11,611 bases of DNA. It comes from Paludibacter sp. GTDB lineage: Bacteria; Bacteroidota; Bacteroidia; Bacteroidales; Paludibacteraceae. Under the pieces are notes generated by a model. It had not been told where the DNA came from, ran no database searches, and saw only the letters and a list, made by a program, of their open reading frames with translations. Numbering within the stretch: the stretch's first letter is position 1; each line of letters opens with the position of its first letter. Below, one piece after another: positions 1-10,621 of this stretch. Both the position numbers and the translations under genes were made by a program. The stretch lies in assembly GCA_028748945.1 (NCBI GenBank), contig JAQTOL010000059.1, positions 1 through 11,611 on the forward strand, read 5' to 3'.

Positions 1-957
1 GGAGTTGAAATTGTAATGATCTCTTCCGGTGCAGTTGCTTCGGGACGAAGCATTATGGGCATCAACAAAAAAATGGATGTGGTGGATCAACGTCAACTAT
101 TTTCGGCAGTGGGGCAGGCTAAACTGGTCAATCATTATTACGACCTGTTTCGTGAACATGGGATAATAGTGGGACAGGTACTGACGACCAAAGAGAATTT
201 TAGTAGCCGCCGACACTATCTGAATCAGCGTAATTGCATGCAAATCATGATAGAAAACAAGGTTATTCCCGTTGTGAATGAGAACGATGCTGTTTCTGTT
301 TCGGAATTAATGTTTACGGATAACGACGAACTTTCGGGATTAATTGCTTCGATGATGGATATGGAAGCACTTATAATCCTCAGCAATATTGATGGTATTT
401 TTAATGGAAATCCCGCTGATCCGGAATCAAAAGTAATTCGCCGCATTGAAAAAGGCCAGGACATCTCGGATTATATCCAAATATCAAAATCGACTTTTGG
501 GCGGGGTGGCATGAACACGAAAACCACTATTGCCCGTAAGATTGCCGATCAGGGAATTAATGTGTTCATTGCCAACGGAAAAACAGACGATATGTTGTTA
601 GAACTGCTTGACTCCAAATCCGATGTGGTTTGTACACAGTTTGTCGCATCGAGCGGAGACGTCTCCAGTGTGAAAAAATGGATTGCACACAGCGAAGGTT
701 TTGCTAAAGGAGAAATCCATGTCAATGAAAATGCAGCCATTGCACTAACCGGAGAAAAAGTTGTCAGCCTGTTACCTATTGGTGCTACAAAAATTGTAGG
801 CGATTTTGAAAAAGATGATATTGTCCGGATTTTCAATCACAAGGGAACATCACTTGGTGTTGGAAAAGTGCAATACGACAGCGATAAAGCACGCGAAATA
901 CTCGGCAAAAAGAACCAAAAACCTTTGGTGCATTGCGATTATTTGTATTTGGAATAA
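1..957 (+). CDS. proB: Glutamate 5-kinase, 5' end outside window (partial)
   Basis: ATP-dependent phosphorylation of L-glutamate to glutamyl-5-phosphate, the first step of proline synthesis, in the cytoplasm. The frame is open from base 1, upstream of the first ATG (16), and begins GVEIVMISSGAVASGR, the conserved SSGA segment of the amino-acid kinase fold. The gene is therefore truncated by the window and lacks roughly 40 N-terminal residues. Further kinase motifs are NENDAV, FTDNDELSGLIASMM, LSNIDGIFNGNP and the GGMNTK loop. About 80 C-terminal residues, from KGEIHVNENAAIAL through SLLPIGATKIVGDF, form the PUA domain found in full-length ProB. The partner proA follows, separated by a nuclease cassette. 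The last nine codons including the stop (931-957) are duplicated downstream of that cassette, so the proB C-terminus is intact. Confidence 0.97.
   Translation, partial: GVEIVMISSGAVASGRSIMGINKKMDVVDQRQLFSAVGQAKLVNHYYDLFREHGIIVGQVLTTKENFSSRRHYLNQRNCMQIMIENKVIPVVNENDAVSVSELMFTDNDELSGLIASMMDMEALIILSNIDGIFNGNPADPESKVIRRIEKGQDISDYIQISKSTFGRGGMNTKTTIARKIADQGINVFIANGKTDDMLLELLDSKSDVVCTQFVASSGDVSSVKKWIAHSEGFAKGEIHVNENAAIALTGEKVVSLLPIGATKIVGDFEKDDIVRIFNHKGTSLGVGKVQYDSDKAREILGKKNQKPLVHCDYLYLE
931..957 (+). repeat. 27-bp direct repeat, left copy (3' end of proB)
   Basis: Begins CATTGCGATT and ends TTTGGAATAA. It encodes the final HCDYLYLE and stop codon of proB and is identical over 27 of 27 bases to 2004-2030. 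The match stops abruptly on both sides. The two copies flank the DUF1016-type nuclease gene, so one copy is presumably the original proB end and the other was created or carried in by the insertion. Confidence 0.95.
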
Positions 958-970
958 ATATTTCAATATT

Positions 971-982
971 AACTTCTGAATA
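971..982. repeat. Imperfect inverted repeat, left cassette arm
   Basis: AACTTCTGAATA matches the reverse complement of 1991-2003 (AACTATCTGAATA) except for one missing base. It lies 13 bp inside the left cassette boundary and just upstream of the nuclease ATG. In AT-rich DNA a 12-of-13 match can arise by chance, so its role as a cassette end is uncertain. Confidence 0.35.
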
Positions 983-987
983 ATATT

Positions 988-1985
988 ATGAGCAAAAATC
1001 TTAATATACAATTTGATGAAATTAGTCTACTGATTTCTCAAGCAAAAGAAAATTCAGTATTGGCCGTTAATGTTGAATTAATTTCCTTGTATTGGAAAAT
1101 TGTAGAACAAGTTCATTTGAAGGTTGAGAGTAGTGAATGGGGTAAATCATTGTAAGTTCACTATCTGAGTTTATTCAACAAAAAGAACCCGGAATTAGAT
1201 GATTTTCGAGCCAAAACATATGGCGAATGAAACAATTCTACGAAAATTATAAGGATTCACCAAAACTCTCGGCACTGCTGAGAGAACTAAGCTGGACAAA
1301 CAATCTTTTAATTATTTCAAAAACAAAATCTATTCAGGAAAAAGAATTTTACATAAAACTGACAATTCAGGAAAGATACAGTTCACGCGAACTTGAGAGA
1401 CAACTAGATAGTGCATTGTTTGAAAGAATGTTGTTGTCAGATAAAAAGCTCTCAGCAGTACTGAGAGAAGTTCATCCAAAAGCCGAAGAAACATTTCGAG
1501 ATAGTTATATGCTTGATTTTCTGTCGCTACCGGTTATTCACTCTGAAAAAGATTTACGAAAAGCTATAGTTGGGAATTTGAAGCAGTTTATTATTGAATT
1601 CGGTAAGGATTTTTCATTTGTTGGTGAAGAATATCGACTGCAAGTAGGAAGCAAAGATTTTTTTGTGGATTTACTGTTTTTTCATCGTGAATTACAGTGT
1701 TTGGTGGCTATAGATTTAAAGATTACCGATTTTCAACCCGAATATTTGGGAAAAATGGAATTTTATTTGGAAGCGCTTGACAATATTGTAAAGAAATCAC
1801 ACGAAAAACCAAGTGTTGGAATAATTCATTGTAAAAATACAGATTCAAAAGTCGTGCAATACGCATTAAACAGGAGTATGTCGCCTACATTAATAGCAAA
1901 ATACGAAACAATTTTGTTTGATAAAAGTTTATTAGAAAGAAAGCTGGATGAATTTTTTCAATTAGAACAAGATTTAGAAAATTAA
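988..1985 (+). pseudogene. DUF1016/YhcG-family PDDEXK nuclease, broken by three indels
   Basis: The ATG at 988 opens a reading frame (MSKNLNIQFDEISLLISQAK..) that runs through ELISLYWKIVEQ and WGKS to a stop at 1153-1155, matching the DUF1016 N-terminal domain. The match continues one frame over (VSSLSEFIQQKE, from 1152), shifts again for PELD near 1189-1199, and returns to the earlier frame for FSSQNIWRMKQFYENYKD from 1203. From there it stays open to 1985. The C-terminal part has the PDDEXK core: EEYRLQVG, DFFVDLLFFHRELQCLVAIDLK, then FQPEYLGKMEFYLEAL. One missing base near 1150, one extra near 1188-1190 and one missing near 1202 restore a protein of about 332 residues, the usual family size. 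YhcG-like proteins are predicted nucleases of poorly known role. The active-site half is intact, but no single unbroken ORF covers both domains. Sequencing error is the main alternative to true decay. Confidence 0.85.
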
Positions 1986-1990
1986 TCTTA

Positions 1991-2003
1991 TATTCAGATA
2001 GTT
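1991..2003. repeat. Imperfect inverted repeat, right cassette arm
   Basis: TATTCAGATAGTT is the near reverse complement of 971-982, with one unpaired base. It directly abuts the right copy of the 27-bp direct repeat at 2004. It may mark the cassette end or form part of a terminator for the nuclease gene; the sequence alone does not decide. Confidence 0.35.
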
Positions 2004-2030
2004 CATTGCGATTATTTGTATTTGGAATAA
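2004..2030 (+). repeat. 27-bp direct repeat, right copy (proB 3'-end duplicate)
   Basis: Exact copy of 931-957, including the proB stop codon. It is non-coding here, lying 18 bp after the nuclease stop and 43 bp before the proA start. Perfect identity in a segment no longer under protein-level selection suggests the duplication is fairly recent, or that the sequence is kept as a recombination site. Confidence 0.95.
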
Positions 2031-2073
2031 TCATTTTATCATGATTATTTAATATTTAACTGACTCTTATATA

Positions 2074-3327
2074 ATGACACAAAATAATATAAACTGGAAA
2101 CAATCCGCCGTACTCGCTTCCCGCTCACTGAATTTAGTGAGTGACGAAACAATTAATCAGGTTTTACTTGCTCTTGCTGATACAGCTGTAGTTAAAACCT
2201 CAATTATTATGACTGAAAATGCAAAAGATCTGGCTGCTATGGATAAATCGAATCCAATGTACGACAGGCTTTTACTGAGTAAAGAAAGAATTGAGGGTAT
2301 AGCTGCCGATATTCGCAATGTTGCTTCTTTGACTTCGCCACTAGGTAAAACATTGATGGAAACCGAACGTCCGAACGGGATGAAAATCACGAAAATCACA
2401 GTTCCTTTTGGGGTGGTTGGCATTATTTATGAAGCCCGCCCGAATGTGAGTTTCGATGTGTTTTCACTTTGTCTGAAATCCGGAAATGCCTGTGTGCTGA
2501 AGGGAGGAACAGATGCTTATCATTCCAACACGGCCATTGTACAAGTTATTCAATCGGTGTTGGAGCAGTTTGGATTAGATAAAAATATCGTGACTTTGCT
2601 CCCTGCCGGTCGTGAGGCTACTGCAGAATTGATGAACGCTGTTGGAACGGTGGATGTCATTATTCCACGCGGTGGAAAAGGATTAATTGATTTTGTGCGC
2701 GACAATTCCCGCATTCCGGTTATAGAAACTGGTGCCGGAATCTGCCATACTTACTTCGATGAATTTGGAGATTTGAAAAAAGGGAAAGAAATTGTTTTCA
2801 ATGCCAAAACCCGCAGAGTAAGTGTTTGTAATTCTTTGGACTGCCTGGTGATTCATGAAAAACGATTGGCCGATTTACCCGAGCTTTGTGAAAAATTAGC
2901 TACAAAAAATGTGATCATTTATGCCGATTTAAAAGCCTATACTTTCCTGAATGGCCGCTATCCTGCTGCATTGTTGCAAAAAGCCAATGAAGAAAGTTAT
3001 GGGACCGAATTTTTAGATTACAAAATGGCTGTGAAAACGGTTGCTTCCCTTCGGGATGCAGTGGATCATATTTCAAAATTCAGTTCCAAACATAGTGAAT
3101 GCATTGTAAGTGAGAATAGTAATAGTGTGTTGTTTTTTGATAAAATGGTGGATGCTGCTTGTGTTTATACAAATGTTTCGACCGCATTTACTGATGGAGC
3201 TCAATTTGGATTGGGTGCTGAGATTGGAATCAGTACGCAAAAATTACATGCCCGTGGCCCAATGGGATTGGGTGAACTGTGTTCTTATAAGTGGATCATA
3301 AAAGGAGATGGACTCGTACGGAGCTAG
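2074..3327 (+). CDS. proA: Glutamate-5-semialdehyde dehydrogenase (gamma-glutamyl phosphate reductase)
   Basis: NADPH-dependent reduction of glutamyl-5-phosphate to glutamate-5-semialdehyde, which cyclises to pyrroline-5-carboxylate: step two of proline synthesis, cytoplasmic. The 417 residues match the family's usual length. Visible aldehyde-dehydrogenase-fold motifs include [19 protein letters not shown] (111-129), CVLKGG (140-145), [10 protein letters not shown] (196-205) and [12 protein letters not shown] (218-229). The catalytic cysteine is expected at C252, in [12 protein letters not shown]. The C-terminal [27 protein letters not shown] is the family's substrate-binding end. The ATG at 2074 gives the normal N-terminus; no Shine-Dalgarno sequence is seen, as usual in this phylum. 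It would normally follow proB directly; the nuclease cassette now lies between them, so expression depends on read-through or a new promoter. Confidence 0.98.
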
Positions 3328-3692
3328 GAATTAAAATCATAAGTGTTTTCGGATTAAATAATTGCATTTCACCTGAAACAATTCACAGCGGAATTCAAAA
3401 AATGGAATGAACATATTTGTTAATATTCGCATGTGAATTCGCTGAATGATCAATTTATTTACTAATTTGTAACGTATAACCCCTGATATATCCGTATAAT
3501 TCACTAAATTTCAATTATTTTTACAAAATTTCTTGTGAATTTGAAATTAAATGATTTCCTTTGCATCTGAAAAGAAAGTGTATTTTCTCGTCATGGTTAT
3601 TTTCAACTATCCATTTCCTGGACAGATATTTCTAACTACGTTTGTTTGCACTGTTCTTGAATCACAATTTTATCAATTTTTTATTCTATTTT
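3328..3692. other. 365-bp non-coding region between proA and the RRM gene
   Basis: No credible gene. The reading frame that appears to start at 3642 is only an upstream extension of the RRM gene (MFALFLNHNF..., unlike any RRM start). An imperfect inverted repeat lies at 3382-3396 and 3434-3446, around EcoRI-like GAATTC centres, and could fold with a loop of about 37 bases. A candidate promoter lies at 3533-3563. The remaining 125 or so bases to the RRM start would be an unusually long leader for a small gene. Confidence 0.6.
3533..3563 (+). promoter_or_regulatory. Candidate Bacteroidota promoter for the RRM gene
   Basis: TTG at 3533-3535, a 20-base spacer, then TTCCTTTG at 3556-3563, one base off the TAnnTTTG -7 consensus of the primary sigma factor in Bacteroides relatives. 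Transcription would start near 3570, leaving a leader of about 120 bases before the ATG at 3693. This is only a motif match. Confidence 0.45.
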
Positions 3693-3938
3693 ATGAACAT
3701 TTACGTAGGTAACCTAAGTTACAAAGTTAGGGAAAATGACCTTCAAGGGGTTATTGAAGAGTATGGTCAAGTTGAATCTTGCAAAATTATTAAAGATCGC
3801 GAAACAGGTAAATCTAAAGGATTTGCATTTGTTGAAATGACAGACGACGCTGCAGCTTCAAAGGTCATTGAAGAATTAAACGGCGCAGAATTCGATGGTC
3901 GTTCTATGGTTGTTAAAGAAGCCAGACCAAGAGCTTAA
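3693..3938 (+). CDS. Single-RRM RNA-binding protein
   Basis: Cytoplasmic RNA-binding protein of 81 residues consisting of one RNA recognition motif. RNP2 is IYVGNL (residues 3-8) and RNP1 is KGFAFVEM (42-49), with the aromatic residues that stack on RNA bases. The stretch between them, DRETGKSKG, is typical of bacterial RRM proteins. I chose the ATG at 3693 (MNIYVGNLSYK) because family members begin immediately before RNP2; an in-frame ATG at 3642 would add 17 hydrophobic residues with no counterpart. Small RRM proteins of Bacteroides (RbpA/RbpB/RbpC) act as post-transcriptional regulators of surface-polysaccharide and glycan-use genes. As I recall, many carry a Gly/Arg-rich tail; this one ends at ARPRA without it. 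The RNA targets cannot be read from the sequence. Confidence 0.93.
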   Translation: MNIYVGNLSYKVRENDLQGVIEEYGQVESCKIIKDRETGKSKGFAFVEMTDDAAASKVIEELNGAEFDGRSMVVKEARPRA

Positions 3939-3986
3939 GATTTAATTTCTAAGAAACAAGAGAACTTCTGTTATCGAAAGGTGGCA

Positions 3987-4016
3987 GGAGTTTTTTTATA
4001 AAAAAAGTTATACTCC
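3987..4016 (+). terminator. Inverted repeat with T7/A7 palindrome after the RRM gene
   Basis: GGAGT (3987-3991) and ACTCC (4012-4016) enclose a perfect 16-bp palindrome of seven T, AT, seven A (3991-4006). It lies about 50 bases after the RRM stop codon and before the protease start. This could fold as an AT-rich terminator for the RRM transcript. It lacks a strong GC stem, so the call is tentative. Confidence 0.35.
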
Positions 4017-4061
4017 GCGGATTTATGAAAGACCGCATTTTGAATTTCTAAATTGAAGAAT

Positions 4062-4934
4062 ATGATTAAATTTAAAGGAATACTTGAAAATAATGGAATT
4101 TTCTCCAACCTGCTTCTGATCGTTGGAACTGCCAGTTTTTTTGCATTATTCGGCGTTCTTTTATGGACCACAACGGGAGGAAATGCCAATGATATTGACT
4201 CGATTAAATTGCTGCAATTAATTCAATCGCTGGGTATGTTTGTCATTCCACCCTTTTTTTTGGCCTATTTCTGGAGTAAGAAACCTCTCGTTTATCTTCA
4301 TTTGGATAAGAAATTAAACCGGACAAATGCCGGATTACTAATTCTATTTATGCTGTTGATTATCCCGTTTATCAATCTGCTGGGAGAAATAAATCAACAA
4401 TTAGTTCTTCCCAAAGCATTTGCCGGTATAGAGGCATGGATGAAGGCTGCTCAGGAACAAAGTGATCTGATTACCGGCAAGTTACTTGATGTACATAATT
4501 TGGGTGGCTTATCCCTGAATATTTTATTAATAGCCATGGTTCCCGCTTTGGGAGAAGAGTTATTTTTCAGGGCTGCATTGCAGGGAGTAATTCAAAAATG
4601 GAAAGGGGCAACCATTGCCATCTGGATAAGTGCTTTTATTTTCAGTGCCATTCATTTGCAATTTTACGGATTTGTACCGCGTTTGCTTTTGGGTGCGTTT
4701 TTTGGCTATATGTTAGTTTGGAGTGGAAATTTATGGTTGCCAATTTTGGCTCATTTTGTAAATAATGCCACGGCAGTCATTTTCTATTATTTTAAAAATA
4801 ACGGGTACAATCTTCCGGATATCGATAAGTTGGGCACAGGCAATACTTTGTGGATAGGAATATTAAGCGGTTTCGTGGCAATTGCAGGAATCATCTGGTT
4901 CAAAAAAAGAATGCAAAAAGTAAATCTTCCCTGA
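4062..4934 (+). CDS. CPBP-family intramembrane glutamic endopeptidase
   Basis: Integral inner-membrane protein of 290 residues with about seven or eight hydrophobic segments (for example 16-35, 53-71, 90-107, 152-163, 184-200, 206-221, 223-243, 263-280). The C-terminal half carries the CPBP (Abi/CAAX protease, PF02517) motifs: GEELFFR (motif 1, E165, E166, R170), FSAIH (motif 2, H198) and HFVNN (motif 3, H231 and N235). All expected catalytic residues are present, so an active protease is likely. Family members cleave within or near membranes and include eukaryotic Rce1; bacterial substrates are mostly unknown. I chose the ATG at 4062 over an in-frame TTG at 4053. The gene ends 8 bp from the convergent downstream gene. 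Its substrate cannot be inferred. Confidence 0.9.
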   Translation: MIKFKGILENNGIFSNLLLIVGTASFFALFGVLLWTTTGGNANDIDSIKLLQLIQSLGMFVIPPFFLAYFWSKKPLVYLHLDKKLNRTNAGLLILFMLLIIPFINLLGEINQQLVLPKAFAGIEAWMKAAQEQSDLITGKLLDVHNLGGLSLNILLIAMVPALGEELFFRAALQGVIQKWKGATIAIWISAFIFSAIHLQFYGFVPRLLLGAFFGYMLVWSGNLWLPILAHFVNNATAVIFYYFKNNGYNLPDIDKLGTGNTLWIGILSGFVAIAGIIWFKKRMQKVNLP

Positions 4935-4942
4935 ACTGCCGG

Positions 4943-5335
4943 TTATACCGCTCTTCGTTCGCTTACGATCAACAGCGCCTGTTCGCGTAACTCCTGGGGT
5001 AATTGAATCCGCCTCATTTGTAAGCTGCGCAACCAACCGGCAACATCACTTTCTTTCAGTGTGTAGAATACATCTGAAAGTTGATTCAATTGTTCTTCGG
5101 TATAGTTATTTGGTGACACATCCGATAATGCATCTAATTCTTCGTCATCGAAATAAATGATTATATTATCAGCGCTTAAAAGCGTGTCGTGTTCACAAAC
5201 TGCATGCGCTCCACAACATTCTCCTTCCGGTTCCAGGTATATTTCCGGTTCTTCTGTTTTATTCCTCCGTTGGAAATAGGTTGTAATTAGCAATATTAAA
5301 CCAAGTGCGACAACAGATAATAATAGGATTAGCAT
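4943..5335 (-). CDS. Small membrane-anchored protein with CC-C motif, function unknown
   Basis: 130 residues. An N-terminal hydrophobic helix (about 1-20) is followed by QRRNK, which by the positive-inside rule suggests the remainder faces the cytoplasm. A short stretch GECCGAHAVCEHD holds three cysteines and two histidines (C40, C41, H44, C47, H49), resembling a metal-binding or redox site. An acidic segment, YFDDEELDAL, and a helical C-terminal half follow (YTLKESDVAGWLRSLQMRRIQLPQELREQALLI). I recognise this as a conserved Bacteroidales small protein but cannot name a function; I recall some database copies labelled phospholipase, which nothing here supports. It converges with the protease gene (8-bp gap) and diverges from porW. 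A consensus promoter element lies just upstream. Confidence 0.85.
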   Translation of the reverse strand: MLILLLSVVALGLILLITTYFQRRNKTEEPEIYLEPEGECCGAHAVCEHDTLLSADNIIIYFDDEELDALSDVSPNNYTEEQLNQLSDVFYTLKESDVAGWLRSLQMRRIQLPQELREQALLIVSERRAV

Positions 5336-5382
5336 AAAATAATGTTATTGTTCGTTTTCTTAATTCAACATAATTTTCGCCG

Positions 5383-5390
5383 CAAAGTTA
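5383..5390 (-). promoter_or_regulatory. -7 promoter element for the small CC-C protein
   Basis: On the minus strand this reads TAACTTTG, a perfect TAnnTTTG element, followed by CGGCG. It lies 48 bases upstream of the ATG at 5335, a typical leader distance. No clear -33 TTTG is seen at the right spacing. Confidence 0.6.
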
Positions 5391-5412
5391 GATATTAATG
5401 CCCGAAATTATG

Positions 5413-5420
5413 TATTTTTG
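5413..5420 (+). promoter_or_regulatory. -7 promoter element reading toward porW
   Basis: TATTTTTG fits the TAnnTTTG consensus exactly and lies only 22 bp from the opposing minus-strand element. It would leave a porW leader of about 150 bases containing a five-codon open frame (ATG at 5495). The -33 region is weak, so this could be a chance match in AT-rich DNA. Confidence 0.4.
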
Positions 5421-5580
5421 TAAGTTAAAATACAATAGAAAGCACTTTTTGAAGTTTGTATTTCGGTATCTTCTTTTTCAACCATAGCGTTTTTATGAAA
5501 AAGCAAGCTTAAAGTTGTATTCATTTTGTTTGGTTTTAAATATCAGCACTTTTAATTTAATTTCTTCAGCCTAAAATCTT

Positions 5581-8500
5581 TTGAAAAAACAGTTCATATA
5601 TAAAATTTCATTTTTGTTGATAATAATCTTTATCAGCGGTTGCTCAACAAAAAAGAATACCTGGATTTCAAGGTTTTATCAAGCAACAAATACACGGTTT
5701 AACGTGTTTTTTAATGGTATGAATAGCTATGAAGATGGTTTGAAAAATATTGAGAAAGCCAATCAGGAAGATTATTCGACAATTATTCCCATGTATCCGA
5801 TAAGCCGGCATTCGAATGCAAAAGCTGCGACAGCAAACATGGACCGAACCATCGAAAAGTGCAGAAAAGCCATTAAATTACATTCCATTAAAGTTAAGCC
5901 GAAAAAAAATTATAAAAAGGCTAATTCACCTGAATATAAGCTTTTTTATAACCAGCAAGAGTTCAACCCGGCCCTCAAGGATGCCTGGTTGTTGTTGGCT
6001 AAAGCCGAATTTCACAAGGCTGATTTTTTAGGTTCGGCCGCAACGTTTTCGTATATCGCGCGCCATTATACCAATGATAAGGACGTGGAAACAGTTTGTC
6101 AACTTTGGAAAGCCCGTGCTTATGCCGAAATGGGCTGGATATTCGAAGCAGAACAAGTTCTTTCCAAATTAGATCAAAACAATTTGAAACCGGAGGATAT
6201 TGGACTTTTTGCATCGGTTAATGCCGATTTGTTGCTTAAAAAGCGTCAATATAAAGAAGCAATCCCTTTTTTGGCATTAGCTCTATCGAAAGAAAAAGAT
6301 AAGGATTTAAAACAACGCTTTAGTTTCTTACTGGCTCAACTTTATCAGAAAACAGGAAATGACAAAGCCGCTTTTGAGGCTTATACGAGTGTCATCAAAA
6401 TGAATCCTCCTTATGAAATGGATTTTAATGCCCGGATCAGTCGTGCTCAAATTGATAAAGGAAACGTGCAGAGTGTACGGAAAGATTTAAAGAAAATGCT
6501 TAAGAATCCAAATAATAAAGATTACCTGGATCAACTTTATTTTGCACTGGCAAAAACGTACCTGAATCATTCCGACACTGTAAGAGCAATTGAAAACTAT
6601 AAGCTATCCATTGAAAAAAGTACACGGAATGGTATTGACAAAGCCGTTACTTTAATTACGTTAGGTGATTTGTATTATTCAAAAAGGAAATATATTCTGG
6701 CACAACCATGCTATGACGATGCATCCAAAATAATTACCAATGAACAAAATGATTACGACCGCGTAACAAACCGGGCCGAAACCTTGGCCGAATTGGTGAC
6801 GCAAAACAACGTTGTGGAACTGCAGGATAGTTTGCAACGACTGGCTGCTATGCCCGAAAATAAAAGGTTGGAAGTAGTAACCAAGTTGATAGAGAAGTTG
6901 GAAGCAGATGAAAAAGCAGCTGCTCAAAAACAGTTGGAAAAAGCAGCAAATCCGAATTCGGATGAGGATTTTGCAAATCAACCGCCAATTGGTGGAAATT
7001 TGCCCGGTGCTGCAGGCGACTGGTATTTTTATAATCCGAATCTCATGCGGAGCGGTAAGTCCGATTTTTTGAAGAAATGGGGTAATCGTAAATTGGAGGA
7101 TAACTGGAGACGAACGAATAAGGCTACCTCACTCTTTGCCGATGATGCAACTGCATCTATATCCAGTACTGACTCCACCGATACTATTGCAAAGACTGCT
7201 GCTTCGTCCGATTTTAAGGATCCGCAATTTTACCTGAAACAAATACCGGTTACAGCTGCTCAAATAGCCGGTTCGAATGCTGAAATTGCAACGGCACTCT
7301 ATAATATGGGACTCATTTTTAAAGATAAAATTGAAGATATACCAATGGCAATCTCTACTTTTGAAGCGTTTATCCGCAGATTTGGTTCTGATGAAAGAGT
7401 TCCTGATGCTTATTATCAACTCTATGTCATGGAGACGATGCAGAATAATGCCGGCGGTGCGGACCTTTACCGAACAAAATTGATGACTGAGTTTCCGGAT
7501 TCAAAGTATCAGAAAATACTTTCGCAACCTGACTATGCAGCAAGGCAGGAACGCATGTATAAAGAACAGGATTCTATTTATAGCATTACATATAAGGCTT
7601 TCAGTGAGAGTAAGTTTGATACGGTTTTCAATAATGTTGCTTATATTCAACATAATTATCCATTGTCGACTCTGATGCCTAAGTTTTTGTTCTTAAACGC
7701 ATTGAGTATTGGGAAAAGAGATCCATCCGAAAAGTTTGAGACGGCATTGTCCGATTTGATCAAGAGTTATCCGGAAAGCGATGTAAGCGCCATGTCGAAA
7801 GACATTCTGGCACTTATGAAACAGGGTCGTGAAACTCAATTGGGAACTTCGAGCGGTACCTTGCTTGCCCGACGGGATTCGGACATGAAATCGGAAGAAA
7901 CGAATAAGAATCCGGAATTGCAATTTTCTACCGAGCGGCAATCTAAACACCGTCTTTTGCTGATTACTCCGACTAATCAGGATCACCTGAATAAGTTGCT
8001 TTATAATATCGCATCGTTTAATTTTTCCCGATTTATGATAAAGGACTTTGATTTGGTAATAAGTAAATTAGATACAGTTAGAAGCACTTTGTCTGTTACA
8101 AATTTTGAATCGTACGACGAGGTTGACTGGTATGCAAAATCATTAGCTACCGATCCTACCATCATGAAATTATTGAACGATTATCAGGTTCAGGAAGTTA
8201 TTATCTCGGAAGATAACTATGCACTATTAAAAACATCGTTTAGTCTGAACGATTATTTGGCTTTTCAGTCCAGACCTGTTGATGCTAAACAAATCGAAAT
8301 GGCTGCTGTAACAAAATCCGGAAAGAAAAACGATGTCATTGTAGTTCAAAAAGATAAATTGCCTAAAAATGAGGCAGGTACTATAACAAAAACGACGGAA
8401 AAAGCATCGCAGATAGAAAAGGTTGAAAAACCGGTTGAAAATCCTGTGAAAACTAATCCTGCGAAAGCTACAAATGAAGTAAAAACGGATAAAACAACAG

Positions 8501-8961
8501 CCGATGTTAGTGCTTTGACAAAAGAAGAACCTGCGATAAAACCAGTTGAACCTGTTGTAACACAGCCAAAGGATGAAGCTCCTTTATTCAAAGGATTATT
8601 TACCTATCGATCGAATGAGCCTCATTATATAGCTATATACATTTTGTCCGGAACCATTGATTTTGAGAAAACAAAAGCTGCTTTCGATGCCTATAATGCT
8701 AAAAATTATGGAGTTATGAATCTGAAAGTTTCACTTGAAACAGTAGATAAACAGCAAATAATTATTATTGGAAGTCTGAGCGATGCTTACGTGGCAAAAT
8801 CGTATCTGATGCATATGGTAAAAGAGAAAAGTCTGTTTGAAGGGCTGAAAAACGCAAATTACAGAAACATACTTGGCTCTCATCAGAACCTGAATATTTT
8901 GATGCAACAAAATGCATTGAAGACCTATTTTGAATTTATGCAGGAATATTATTTGAAATAA
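5581..8961 (+). CDS. porW: T9SS-associated TPR lipoprotein, PorW/SprE family
   Basis: Envelope lipoprotein needed for type IX secretion in Porphyromonas (PorW) and for secretion and gliding in Flavobacterium (SprE). The start is TTG at 5581: an in-frame stop lies three codons upstream, and this start gives a lipoprotein signal peptide with lipobox ISGC (lipidated C21). Residues 130-420 and 565-750 hold tetratricopeptide-like helix pairs. A Lys/Glu/Ala-rich coil at 425-460 precedes a conserved core, WYFYNPNL (481-488) and WGNRKLEDNWRR (500-511), which I recognise as characteristic of this family. The C-terminus has two similar alpha/beta segments (about 790-896 and 1013-1120) joined by a Lys/Thr/Pro/Glu-rich linker (925-1000). 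At 1,126 residues it is larger than I recall for P. gingivalis PorW. porX follows, so the two T9SS genes are neighbours. The family call is firm; the exact role of the C-terminal repeats is not known to me. Confidence 0.92.
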   Translation: MKKQFIYKISFLLIIIFISGCSTKKNTWISRFYQATNTRFNVFFNGMNSYEDGLKNIEKANQEDYSTIIPMYPISRHSNAKAATANMDRTIEKCRKAIKLHSIKVKPKKNYKKANSPEYKLFYNQQEFNPALKDAWLLLAKAEFHKADFLGSAATFSYIARHYTNDKDVETVCQLWKARAYAEMGWIFEAEQVLSKLDQNNLKPEDIGLFASVNADLLLKKRQYKEAIPFLALALSKEKDKDLKQRFSFLLAQLYQKTGNDKAAFEAYTSVIKMNPPYEMDFNARISRAQIDKGNVQSVRKDLKKMLKNPNNKDYLDQLYFALAKTYLNHSDTVRAIENYKLSIEKSTRNGIDKAVTLITLGDLYYSKRKYILAQPCYDDASKIITNEQNDYDRVTNRAETLAELVTQNNVVELQDSLQRLAAMPENKRLEVVTKLIEKLEADEKAAAQKQLEKAANPNSDEDFANQPPIGGNLPGAAGDWYFYNPNLMRSGKSDFLKKWGNRKLEDNWRRTNKATSLFADDATASISSTDSTDTIAKTAASSDFKDPQFYLKQIPVTAAQIAGSNAEIATALYNMGLIFKDKIEDIPMAISTFEAFIRRFGSDERVPDAYYQLYVMETMQNNAGGADLYRTKLMTEFPDSKYQKILSQPDYAARQERMYKEQDSIYSITYKAFSESKFDTVFNNVAYIQHNYPLSTLMPKFLFLNALSIGKRDPSEKFETALSDLIKSYPESDVSAMSKDILALMKQGRETQLGTSSGTLLARRDSDMKSEETNKNPELQFSTERQSKHRLLLITPTNQDHLNKLLYNIASFNFSRFMIKDFDLVISKLDTVRSTLSVTNFESYDEVDWYAKSLATDPTIMKLLNDYQVQEVIISEDNYALLKTSFSLNDYLAFQSRPVDAKQIEMAAVTKSGKKNDVIVVQKDKLPKNEAGTITKTTEKASQIEKVEKPVENPVKTNPAKATNEVKTDKTTADVSALTKEEPAIKPVEPVVTQPKDEAPLFKGLFTYRSNEPHYIAIYILSGTIDFEKTKAAFDAYNAKNYGVMNLKVSLETVDKQQIIIIGSLSDAYVAKSYLMHMVKEKSLFEGLKNANYRNILGSHQNLNILMQQNALKTYFEFMQEYYLK

Positions 8962-8964
8962 ATG

Positions 8965-9045
8965 CCCCTTAAATCCCCCCAGGGGGACTTAAGAGAGCGA
9001 TTTGAAGTATTAATATTAATAGAGTAGTTTTAAGCCTTTTAGGGG
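8965..9045. repeat. REP-like palindromic element between porW and porX
   Basis: Inner hairpin: arms 8968-8979 (CTTAAATCCCCC) and 8982-8993 (GGGGGACTTAAG) pair at 11 of 12 positions around a 2-base loop. Outer arms 8965-8973 (CCCCTTAAA) and 9037-9045 (TTTTAGGGG) can pair at 8 of 9 positions, competing with the inner hairpin. The AAATCCCCC...GGGGGACTT pattern is one I recall as widely repeated between genes in Bacteroidota genomes. It could terminate or attenuate porW transcription or stabilise its 3' end. No poly-T tract follows the inner stem directly. Confidence 0.7.
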
Positions 9046-9060
9046 TTTGGGAACTAAATT

Positions 9061-9067
9061 GAGGAAG
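9061..9067 (+). promoter_or_regulatory. Shine-Dalgarno-like GAGGAAG before porX
   Basis: GAGGAAG lies 6 bases before the ATG at 9074. Such sites are uncommon in Bacteroidota. Together with the protein alignment it favours the ATG at 9074 over the in-frame TTG at 9047. Confidence 0.45.
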
Positions 9068-9073
9068 CTAATT

Positions 9074-10621
9074 ATGAGAAGAGACCGCATACTTTGGGCT
9101 GATGATGAAATGGATTTATTACGTCCGTATATTCTGTTTTTAGAAGAAAAAGGGTACGAAGTTATCACTGCTACTAATGGGAAAGACGCTGTGGAACTCT
9201 GTCAGAAGGAAAGTTTTGATATTATCTTTCTGGACGAAAATATGCCGGGATTAAGTGGTTTGGAAACTTTAGCCCTGATAAAGGATATTGATCCAAATGT
9301 TCCCATGGTGATGATTACCAAAAGTGAAGAAGAAAACATAATGAATATGGCTATCGGGAGTAAAATAGCCGATTATCTGACTAAACCGGTAAATCCGAGC
9401 CAGATTCTGCTCACACTGAAAAAAAATATTCATCAAAAAGAAATTGTTTCTGAACATACTACAACTACTTATCAGTCTCAATTTGGACGGATTGGTATGC
9501 AAATCAACGACACCTTGACATACGAAGATTGGGTGGAAGTCTATAAGAAGTTGGTTTATTGGGAACTGGAGTTGGCTGAAACCGATAATGGAATGGATGA
9601 AATGCTTCGTATGCAAAAAACCGAAGCGAATAATATCTTTACAAAGTTCATCAAGAAAAACTATGTGGATTGGTTTGAGCATACAGAAAAGCGTCCGTTG
9701 ATGAGTCCCGATTTATTCAAAACCAAGGTGTTTCCATTGCTGGATAAAGGAGAAAAGGTATTTTTCATTTTGGTCGATAATTTCCGTTATGATCAGTGGA
9801 AAATTATCCGCGAATTGTTGAATGAGTTTTATCAGATTAACGAGGAAGAATTATATTGCAGTATGCTTCCTACGGCCACTCAATATGCCCGTAATGCTAT
9901 CTTTTCAGGACTCTTACCTTTGCAAATTCAGCAAATGTTCCCCGATCTCTGGATAGAAGAAGAGGATGAAGAAGGGAAAAACATCTTTGAAAATGATTTA
10001 TTACAGACTCAGTTCAAGCGATACAGAAAGAATTATACTTATTCTTATCACAAGGTGAGTGACTCCGCATCCTGCGAACGTTTAATCGGACAACTTCCGC
10101 GAATTGATGGTAATCAGTTGAATGTTTGTGTGTTGAATTTTATTGATATGCTTTCACATGCACGGACCGAATCGAAAATGATGCGTGAACTGGCGAATGA
10201 TGAACAGGCTTATCGTTCCTTGACACTTTCGTGGTTTAAACATTCGGCAACCTATGAACTTTTTAAGGAAATTGCCCATCGCGGTTACAAAGTGATTGTA
10301 ACAACCGATCATGGAACCATACAGGTGAACAATGCCATTAAAGTGATAGGAGATAAACACACGAATGTGAATCTGCGCTATAAAGTAGGAAAAAATCTGA
10401 GTTATAATAAAAAGGAAGTATTTGAAGTAACACAGCCGGAAAAGATTGGTTTGCCTAGTCCAAATGTAAGTTCTGCCTATATATTTGCCACTAACGATGA
10501 TTTTTTTGCTTATCCTAATAATTACAATTACTACGCGGGATATTATAAAAATACATTTCAACACGGAGGAATTTCGTTGGAAGAAATGTTAATCCCTTTG
10601 GTCGTAATGCAACCCAAATAA
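9074..10621 (+). CDS. porX: T9SS response regulator with PglZ-type phosphodiesterase domain, PorX
   Basis: Cytoplasmic regulator of type IX secretion, in Porphyromonas linked to the histidine kinase PorY and the sigma factor SigP. The 515 residues match the PorX length. The receiver domain (1-120) has the acidic pair D10/D11, phospho-acceptor D54 (FLDENMPG), T82 and K104 (LTKPV). A helical linker leads to a PglZ/alkaline-phosphatase-like domain from about 210, with metal-site motifs FILVDNFRYDQ (D235), MLPTATQYARN (likely nucleophile T269), LNFIDMLSHARTE (D358, H362), VTTDHGT (D412, H413) and HGGISLEEM (H497). Crystal and biochemical work on PorX describes this domain as a zinc phosphodiesterase acting on oligonucleotides. 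All these residues are present, so it should be functional. Start ATG 9074: MRRDRILWADDE fits the family; the TTG at 9047 adds nine residues read from the preceding repeat. No PorY lies in this window. Confidence 0.96.
   Translation: MRRDRILWADDEMDLLRPYILFLEEKGYEVITATNGKDAVELCQKESFDIIFLDENMPGLSGLETLALIKDIDPNVPMVMITKSEEENIMNMAIGSKIADYLTKPVNPSQILLTLKKNIHQKEIVSEHTTTTYQSQFGRIGMQINDTLTYEDWVEVYKKLVYWELELAETDNGMDEMLRMQKTEANNIFTKFIKKNYVDWFEHTEKRPLMSPDLFKTKVFPLLDKGEKVFFILVDNFRYDQWKIIRELLNEFYQINEEELYCSMLPTATQYARNAIFSGLLPLQIQQMFPDLWIEEEDEEGKNIFENDLLQTQFKRYRKNYTYSYHKVSDSASCERLIGQLPRIDGNQLNVCVLNFIDMLSHARTESKMMRELANDEQAYRSLTLSWFKHSATYELFKEIAHRGYKVIVTTDHGTIQVNNAIKVIGDKHTNVNLRYKVGKNLSYNKKEVFEVTQPEKIGLPSPNVSSAYIFATNDDFFAYPNNYNYYAGYYKNTFQHGGISLEEMLIPLVVMQPK

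Follow-up and report, generated by a model that had tools for sequence, protein, structure and literature searches.

Restriction–modification (R-M) genes can insert into genomes with a long duplication of their target (Nobusato 2000 and Furuta 2010, as cited in the accessible parts of PMC3874152 and PMC3031569). Homology-facilitated illegitimate recombination has also been described (PMC3240628, accessible parts) and an anchored model was applied to arrays of immunity genes (PMC5361080, accessible parts). Genes of the DUF1016/YhcG family (PF17761, PF06250; PADLOC PDC-S02) are reported as cargo of conjugative elements in excerpts of PMC4316617 and PMC6300072, and DUF1016 is found in a table of genes common to gut genomes (excerpt of PMC10782964). 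In the accessible parts of the literature on this family, on long target duplication and on illegitimate recombination no description of duplicated gene ends around the DUF1016 family was found. Here, we show a cassette with a DUF1016/YhcG gene located behind proB of a Paludibacter sp. between two copies of the proB end, together with the recurrence of flanking repeats at other loci of this family.

A cassette inserted behind proB

The window, i.e. the whole analyzed stretch of 11,611 nucleotides (G000:C59:1-11611), belongs to a draft assembly of 540 contigs that is 85% complete. The proB part, the repeat copies, the cassette and proA are all located on the forward strand. The window opens with the 3' part of proB (1–957) comprising AA_kinase and PUA domains, the start of the gene being cut by the contig edge. 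The closing eight proB codons and the stop (931–957, encoding H C D Y L Y L E and TAA) constitute the first copy of an exact 27-base direct repeat, which heads the list of direct repeats in the window, and the second copy was found at 2004–2030 as the original prediction had it. We regard this second copy as the left-over old proB end; the native proB–proA spacer comes next, followed by the native downstream neighbour proA (2074–3327) with an aldehyde dehydrogenase fold. Between the copies lies a cassette body of 1046 bases (958–2003).

The insertion of this cassette behind proB is proven by an empty site in Paludibacter sp. UBA6032 (L082, DIZI01000017.1). Its DNA aligns with 97% to window positions 1–963 and with 95% to 2001–10028, the two pieces join within the repeat, and the locus equals the window minus 958–2030 with a single 27-base copy and with proA again 43 bases behind proB. 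This is the empty site that had been anticipated if the cassette was inserted; among the repeat loci such a comparison was made for the window locus alone. The empty state is the older one, because proA lies 22–58 bases behind proB in seven more Paludibacter loci (L083, L085, L096, L100, L101, L103, L106). Between UBA6032 and the window proB differs at 26 of 957 positions. As these mismatches are evenly spread and the final 57 bases have none, the proB end has not been exchanged for one that is visibly foreign. Neither a tRNA nor a tmRNA is present within the window as a possible insertion target. The repeat is not a dispersed sequence either: the proB-end pattern occurs 29 times in 60 genomes (G011 being included twice, with the pattern on two contigs), 27 times at proB ends and twice as a second copy (G000, G025).

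The cassette barely exceeds its gene, with 30 bases ahead of the ATG and 18 after the stop, and there is no methylase, integrase, mobility gene or any further gene between the copies. The prediction of a lone nuclease gene stands in that DUF1016 is the only sequence there, with the correction that the gene is not intact. The frame from the ATG at 988 comprises 55 codons and runs after a frame change into a stop at 1153–1155; this first piece (988–1155) matches Pfam DUF1016_N with 28.8 bits (E 1.5e-6), i.e. below the curated cut-off of 32.8. The protein goes on in another frame, in which reading-frame inspection revealed a TGA at 1200–1202 as second lesion. The longest open piece (1227–1985) exceeds the Pfam cut-offs both for YhcG_C, the PD-(D/E)XK nuclease domain (E 7.8e-53), and for DUF1016_N (65.7 bits), and its top match is the PADLOC candidate PDC-S02. 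By its domains the gene is thus a member of the DUF1016/YhcG family with a broken reading frame, and it is the sole YhcG_C match in the source genome. The two lesions fall within about 50 bases and suggest that the gene has decayed; alternatively, there may be a sequencing error in this metagenome-assembled genome. Farther downstream the window contains a long repeat lipoprotein (5581–8961), which we take to resemble SprE, and a response regulator with a large C-terminal domain (9047–10621), presumably similar to PorX.

The proB–proA interval is variable within the genus. Judged from translations, the genes found behind proB in relatives include DUF1016 (G011), AlbA_2-like, DUF262-like, DinD-like and MNT-type genes; the DUF1016 gene of G011 was also found by sequence match, and MNT matches occur in G005, G007, G009 and G025. 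In G025, which belongs to another family of the same order, an MNT gene and a HEPN-like partner behind proB are followed by a second proB end. The two ends are identical in 42 of 49 bases and differ synonymously in four codons and non-synonymously in one. Comparison of both ends with relatives did not single out the native one (41 versus 40 and 36 versus 38 of 49 positions). A general proB effect as source of the repeat was rejected, for no second proB end (at least 21 of 27 bases) was detected within 6 kb downstream of the 80 named proB loci, several of which hold less than 1 kb there; in another set of 25 loci, which overlaps these 80, G025 alone has one. Within 100 loci (L062–L161, i.e. proB loci and one proB-end contig) the window cassette has no blastn match, and tblastn retrieved only the distant DUF1016 gene of G011 (37% identical, L065/L090). 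On contig C695 of G011 (L065) proB is followed by this distant gene, inside which the contig breaks. Contig C456 (L066) opens with 201 bases of proB end that show four differences; an AlbA_2-like gene and proA come next. These contigs could represent a second duplicated proB end or a strain mixture.

Direct repeats around DUF1016 genes

For each gene 700 bases of upstream sequence were compared with 1500 bases of downstream sequence, and the highest-scoring direct repeat without gaps was taken, scores of at least 17 being counted as positive. The DUF1016 survey covers part of the matches listed, with many fragments and contig-end matches left out, and a few loci were dropped for too little flank: 9 of 121 among relatives, 2 of 26 among the nearest DNA matches of the window gene and 3 of 91 in the class-wide set. 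Repeats were found at 46 of the 224 DUF1016 genes tested, namely at 28 of 112 in relatives (window included), 18 of 88 in the class-wide set and at none of the 24 nearest DNA matches. Mispaired controls, which combine the upstream flank of a DUF1016 locus with the downstream flank of a different one, gave 0/394 with maximal scores of 16 (n = 220) and 15 (n = 174), and since the proB repeat scores 27 it is not a product of chance. Control genes of similar size around proB have repeats in 4 of 268 cases (by reading, one tRNA pair and two short-unit repeats), and control glycosyltransferase (GT2) genes in none of 23, seven of 30 having been dropped for short flanks. Fisher's test of 46/224 yields p 3.7e-13 against ordinary genes and 0.007 against glycosyltransferases. 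In a strict comparison restricted to gene ends, in which L085, consisting of a tRNA pair and a chance ORF, counted as zero, 17 of 224 DUF1016 genes face 0 of 268 ordinary genes. The expectation that the upstream gene's 3' end recurs behind DUF1016 genes more often than at random neighbours was supported. The overall repeat rate of 20% (46/224) is tempered by the accessible parts of PMC2884548, where 10–18% of small variable segments in three other species lie between direct repeats.

At the other DUF1016 loci the repeats comprise 23 to 393 bases and their sequences are unrelated between loci. The nearest DNA matches of the window gene, retrieved from 393 genomes of the order, are 68–72% identical over 740–925 bases; that none of the 24 usable ones has a flanking repeat differs from the other 200 genes with p 0.003. 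A close protein relative in the class-wide set (L485, 69% identical, fourth-closest among the loci compared) is located between copies of an 84-base repeat. At yhcG of E. coli K-12 a flanking repeat was not found.

For anatomy 45 repeat loci were inspected, 27 from relatives and 18 from the class-wide set, with L283 (score 17) outside this number. The upstream copy corresponds to the 3' end of a reading frame in 17 of them; the other 28 lack a clean gene 3' end. The targets, named by domain scans for the loci scanned, are proB (window), asnS (L522, L525), a batB-like gene (L263), a Ni_insertion family gene (L244), a DegT aminotransferase (L038), N6-methylases (L254; L447, which has also a GIY-YIG domain), ORF6N (L056), RhuM (L443) and a carB-like frame (L442) that in both copies stops about 130 positions short of the family model end. 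The gene-end loci also include L216, L227, L249, L055, L032 and L492, the last of which is a whole paralogous gene and a doubtful member. Not all targets are shown as whole genes, because the frames of L216 and L227 have 61 and 63 codons and several frames are cut at the locus edge. Except for L216 the copy ends at most 30 bases from the stop codon (16 of 17 loci); this distance is 0 in window proB, L254 and L522, where 39 identical bases reach up to the asnS stop, and 2 in L263 and L525. Spacers of at most 30 bases on both sides of the gene are found in the window, L038, L249, L211, L515 and L522. L515/L516 represent the mirror case, in which the downstream gene has its 5' end duplicated on the far side. 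L209 was rejected as gene-end case because its own 5' end is repeated, and L261, L221 and L508, which overlap frames, were left out of the 17.

L522 (G444) and L525 (G526) come from two species of one genus. Their alignment covers asnS, the nuclease gene and the repeat at 85%, and the genes located between the DUF1016 gene and a gene that we take to be rpoN-like differ. The same two species have another DUF1016 gene in common (L515 in G526, L516 in G444).

Other small genes were surveyed as well. Flanking repeats occur at 10 of 30 MNT-type genes, some of them weak or of low complexity, and at 7 of 27 RhuM genes; GxxExxY genes (4 of 27, mostly short-unit repeats) were rejected as a further case. 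Of 17 MNT and RhuM repeat loci inspected more closely, 14 lack a clean gene end, so that these genes back the flanking-repeat pattern and not the gene-end pattern, with proB of G025 as exception. In two species (L307, L311) MNT genes are paired with a partner, presumably HEPN-like, and flanked by direct repeats, 28 and 22 bases in length.

Origin of the two copies

Among the 17 gene-end loci, 14 have a downstream copy that remains readable as far as a stop of its own, some tails having just 8–14 residues. In L244 and L032 the downstream copy has decayed, as expected for a relic. Differences between the copies were assigned to codon positions for 15 of the 17 gene-end loci and for G025 (L492 and L032 were left out, and from the gapped copies of L038, L056, L244 and L216 only the ungapped part was used). 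In these 16 loci codon position 3 holds 61 of 99 differences, an excess with p 8e-9 against one third and 6.5e-4 against 0.45, which is our approximate value for the case that only one of the copies is under constraint; 55 codon differences are synonymous and 31 non-synonymous. In L038 the upstream copy ends EEDIQRIIEIIKKRK and the downstream copy ends EEDIQLICNTMVQ. A separate homologue (P0003, 87% identical) ends DEDIQLICNIVVQ and a named Paludibacter homologue (P0057) ends EDDIQLICSMLIH; both share the type of the downstream copy, and others, e.g. P0049, are nearer to the upstream type (ends were compared in 59 of the 120 homologues listed, with 7999 found). Since P0003 and P0057 carry this type of ending, the downstream ending of L038 occurs as a natural allele, and the two copies look as expected for alleles of two different lineages.

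As the copies resemble two target alleles in several loci, recombination with a donor would be preferred over a self-inflicted cut. Therefore, we suggest, with about even chances, that the recurring pattern results from recombination anchored in the end of the target gene with the old end being pushed downstream. In the donor DNA the cassette gene would stand behind a gene 3' end, and homologous recombination would align this end with the recipient's version of that gene. The anchor copy would complete the recipient gene, the far side of the cassette would be joined inside or just ahead of the recipient's own gene end, and this original end, displaced downstream, would become the second copy. 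General recombination would act here instead of a dedicated enzyme. At proB itself the identical copies, the lack of a visible foreign tract and a shared stretch of merely 27 bases speak against this anchored recombination, and no donor in which the same cassette follows the same gene turned up in the 393-genome sample of the order or in L062–L161. Also against it are the repeat-free nearest DNA matches (0/24), the 28 of 45 repeat loci without a clean gene end and the 5' end in L515/L516.

The foremost alternative, which we rate as possible but rather unlikely for the pattern as a whole, is plain insertion with a long target duplication of variable length copied from the recipient, e.g. by filling in a wide staggered break, with the copies drifting apart later. 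At proB it fits at least as well as anchored recombination, for the 27-base copies are identical and proB shows no foreign tract. The range of repeat lengths from 23 to 393 bases and the occurrence of a 5'-end copy are in line with it, too, and R-M systems are known with long variable target duplications in the order of 100 bp (accessible parts of PMC3874152). Such a process would leave one copy as a free relic, in which the third-position bias and two natural C-termini are unexpected, and a random cassette edge would hardly encode a family-like C-terminus as in L038.

According to the original prediction the nuclease would cut a site and drive its own move. In such homing a DUF1016 enzyme would cut near the stop codon of the target, and repair would copy the nuclease-bearing allele and leave a partial duplication. 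The PD-(D/E)XK domain, the compactness of the cassette and the 16 of 17 gene-end loci with copies ending close to a stop codon are compatible with this. Nevertheless, homing is improbable, because cassettes of MNT-type and RhuM genes without a nuclease also lie between repeats and the nearest DNA matches of the window gene have none. Moreover, target sequences are unrelated between loci, the same gene was not found at the same site in the other proB loci (L062–L161), the window gene is broken and the copies look allele-like in several loci, so the idea of a self-driven move is not supported.

Very improbable is a tyrosine recombinase that is supplied in trans and uses the 3' end of a gene for attachment. 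Integration at gene 3' ends is common and the cassette has no mobility gene of its own, but comparison of the repeats, which differ in sequence and length between loci, revealed no shared or conserved attachment core and the proB cassette contains no integrase. An artefact, i.e. misassembly or a feature that variable segments of these genomes share in general, is suggested by the many metagenome-assembled records among the named ones and by the baseline of 10–18% quoted above, yet it is just as improbable given an empty site from a separate assembly, diverged and codon-structured copies, two agreeing genome sets (28/112 and 18/88) and the rates of GT2 (0/23) and ordinary genes (4/268).

Comparison with known systems

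Taken together, these observations suggest that small defence-like genes can move without a mobility enzyme of their own. If it is true that a fifth of DUF1016 genes sit between repeats, duplicated neighbour ends mark transfers and name the gene at the landing site; they would also make the transfer mechanism of small defence genes without transposases or integrases testable. A wider proposal, possible though in our view more doubtful than anchored recombination itself, is that DUF1016 genes and perhaps MNT–HEPN pairs and RhuM genes represent integrase-free gene-sized mobile units that would travel with a copy of the target end as homology anchor. Each jump would restore the target and leave the old end behind the cassette, and would so make the repeats that enable the next excision and transfer between species.

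With free-standing homing endonuclease genes the cassette shares a compact nuclease gene adjoining a housekeeping gene, but no site common to relatives was found among the 100 loci L062–L161, the gene is broken and cutting is putative here. With known DUF1016/YhcG genes it shares strong domain matches and membership in a family already known to move between genomes; in conjugative elements, as described in the excerpts cited above, the DUF1016 gene is located inside a large element, whereas here it stands alone between copies of the neighbour's gene end. Homology-facilitated illegitimate recombination, in the accessible accounts, resembles the anchored recombination suggested here in its conserved upstream anchor, the added gene and the old gene or end displaced downstream; it is the general pattern that fits, with a putative donor and a putative illegitimate joint. 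Next to R-M insertion, the anchored model for arrays of immunity genes (PMC5361080) is the nearest precedent.

The closest known counterpart among those compared is the insertion of R-M genes with long target duplication. This locus differs from it by a single PD-(D/E)XK gene without methylase in place of an R-M system as the mobile unit, and the recurring pattern by some loci exactly behind the stop and by copies that look like two alleles. What both have in common, according to the accessible parts of the R-M literature, are genes without transposase, long direct target repeats of variable length (27 bases here) and recognition by comparison of near relatives, in this case by an empty relative with one copy.
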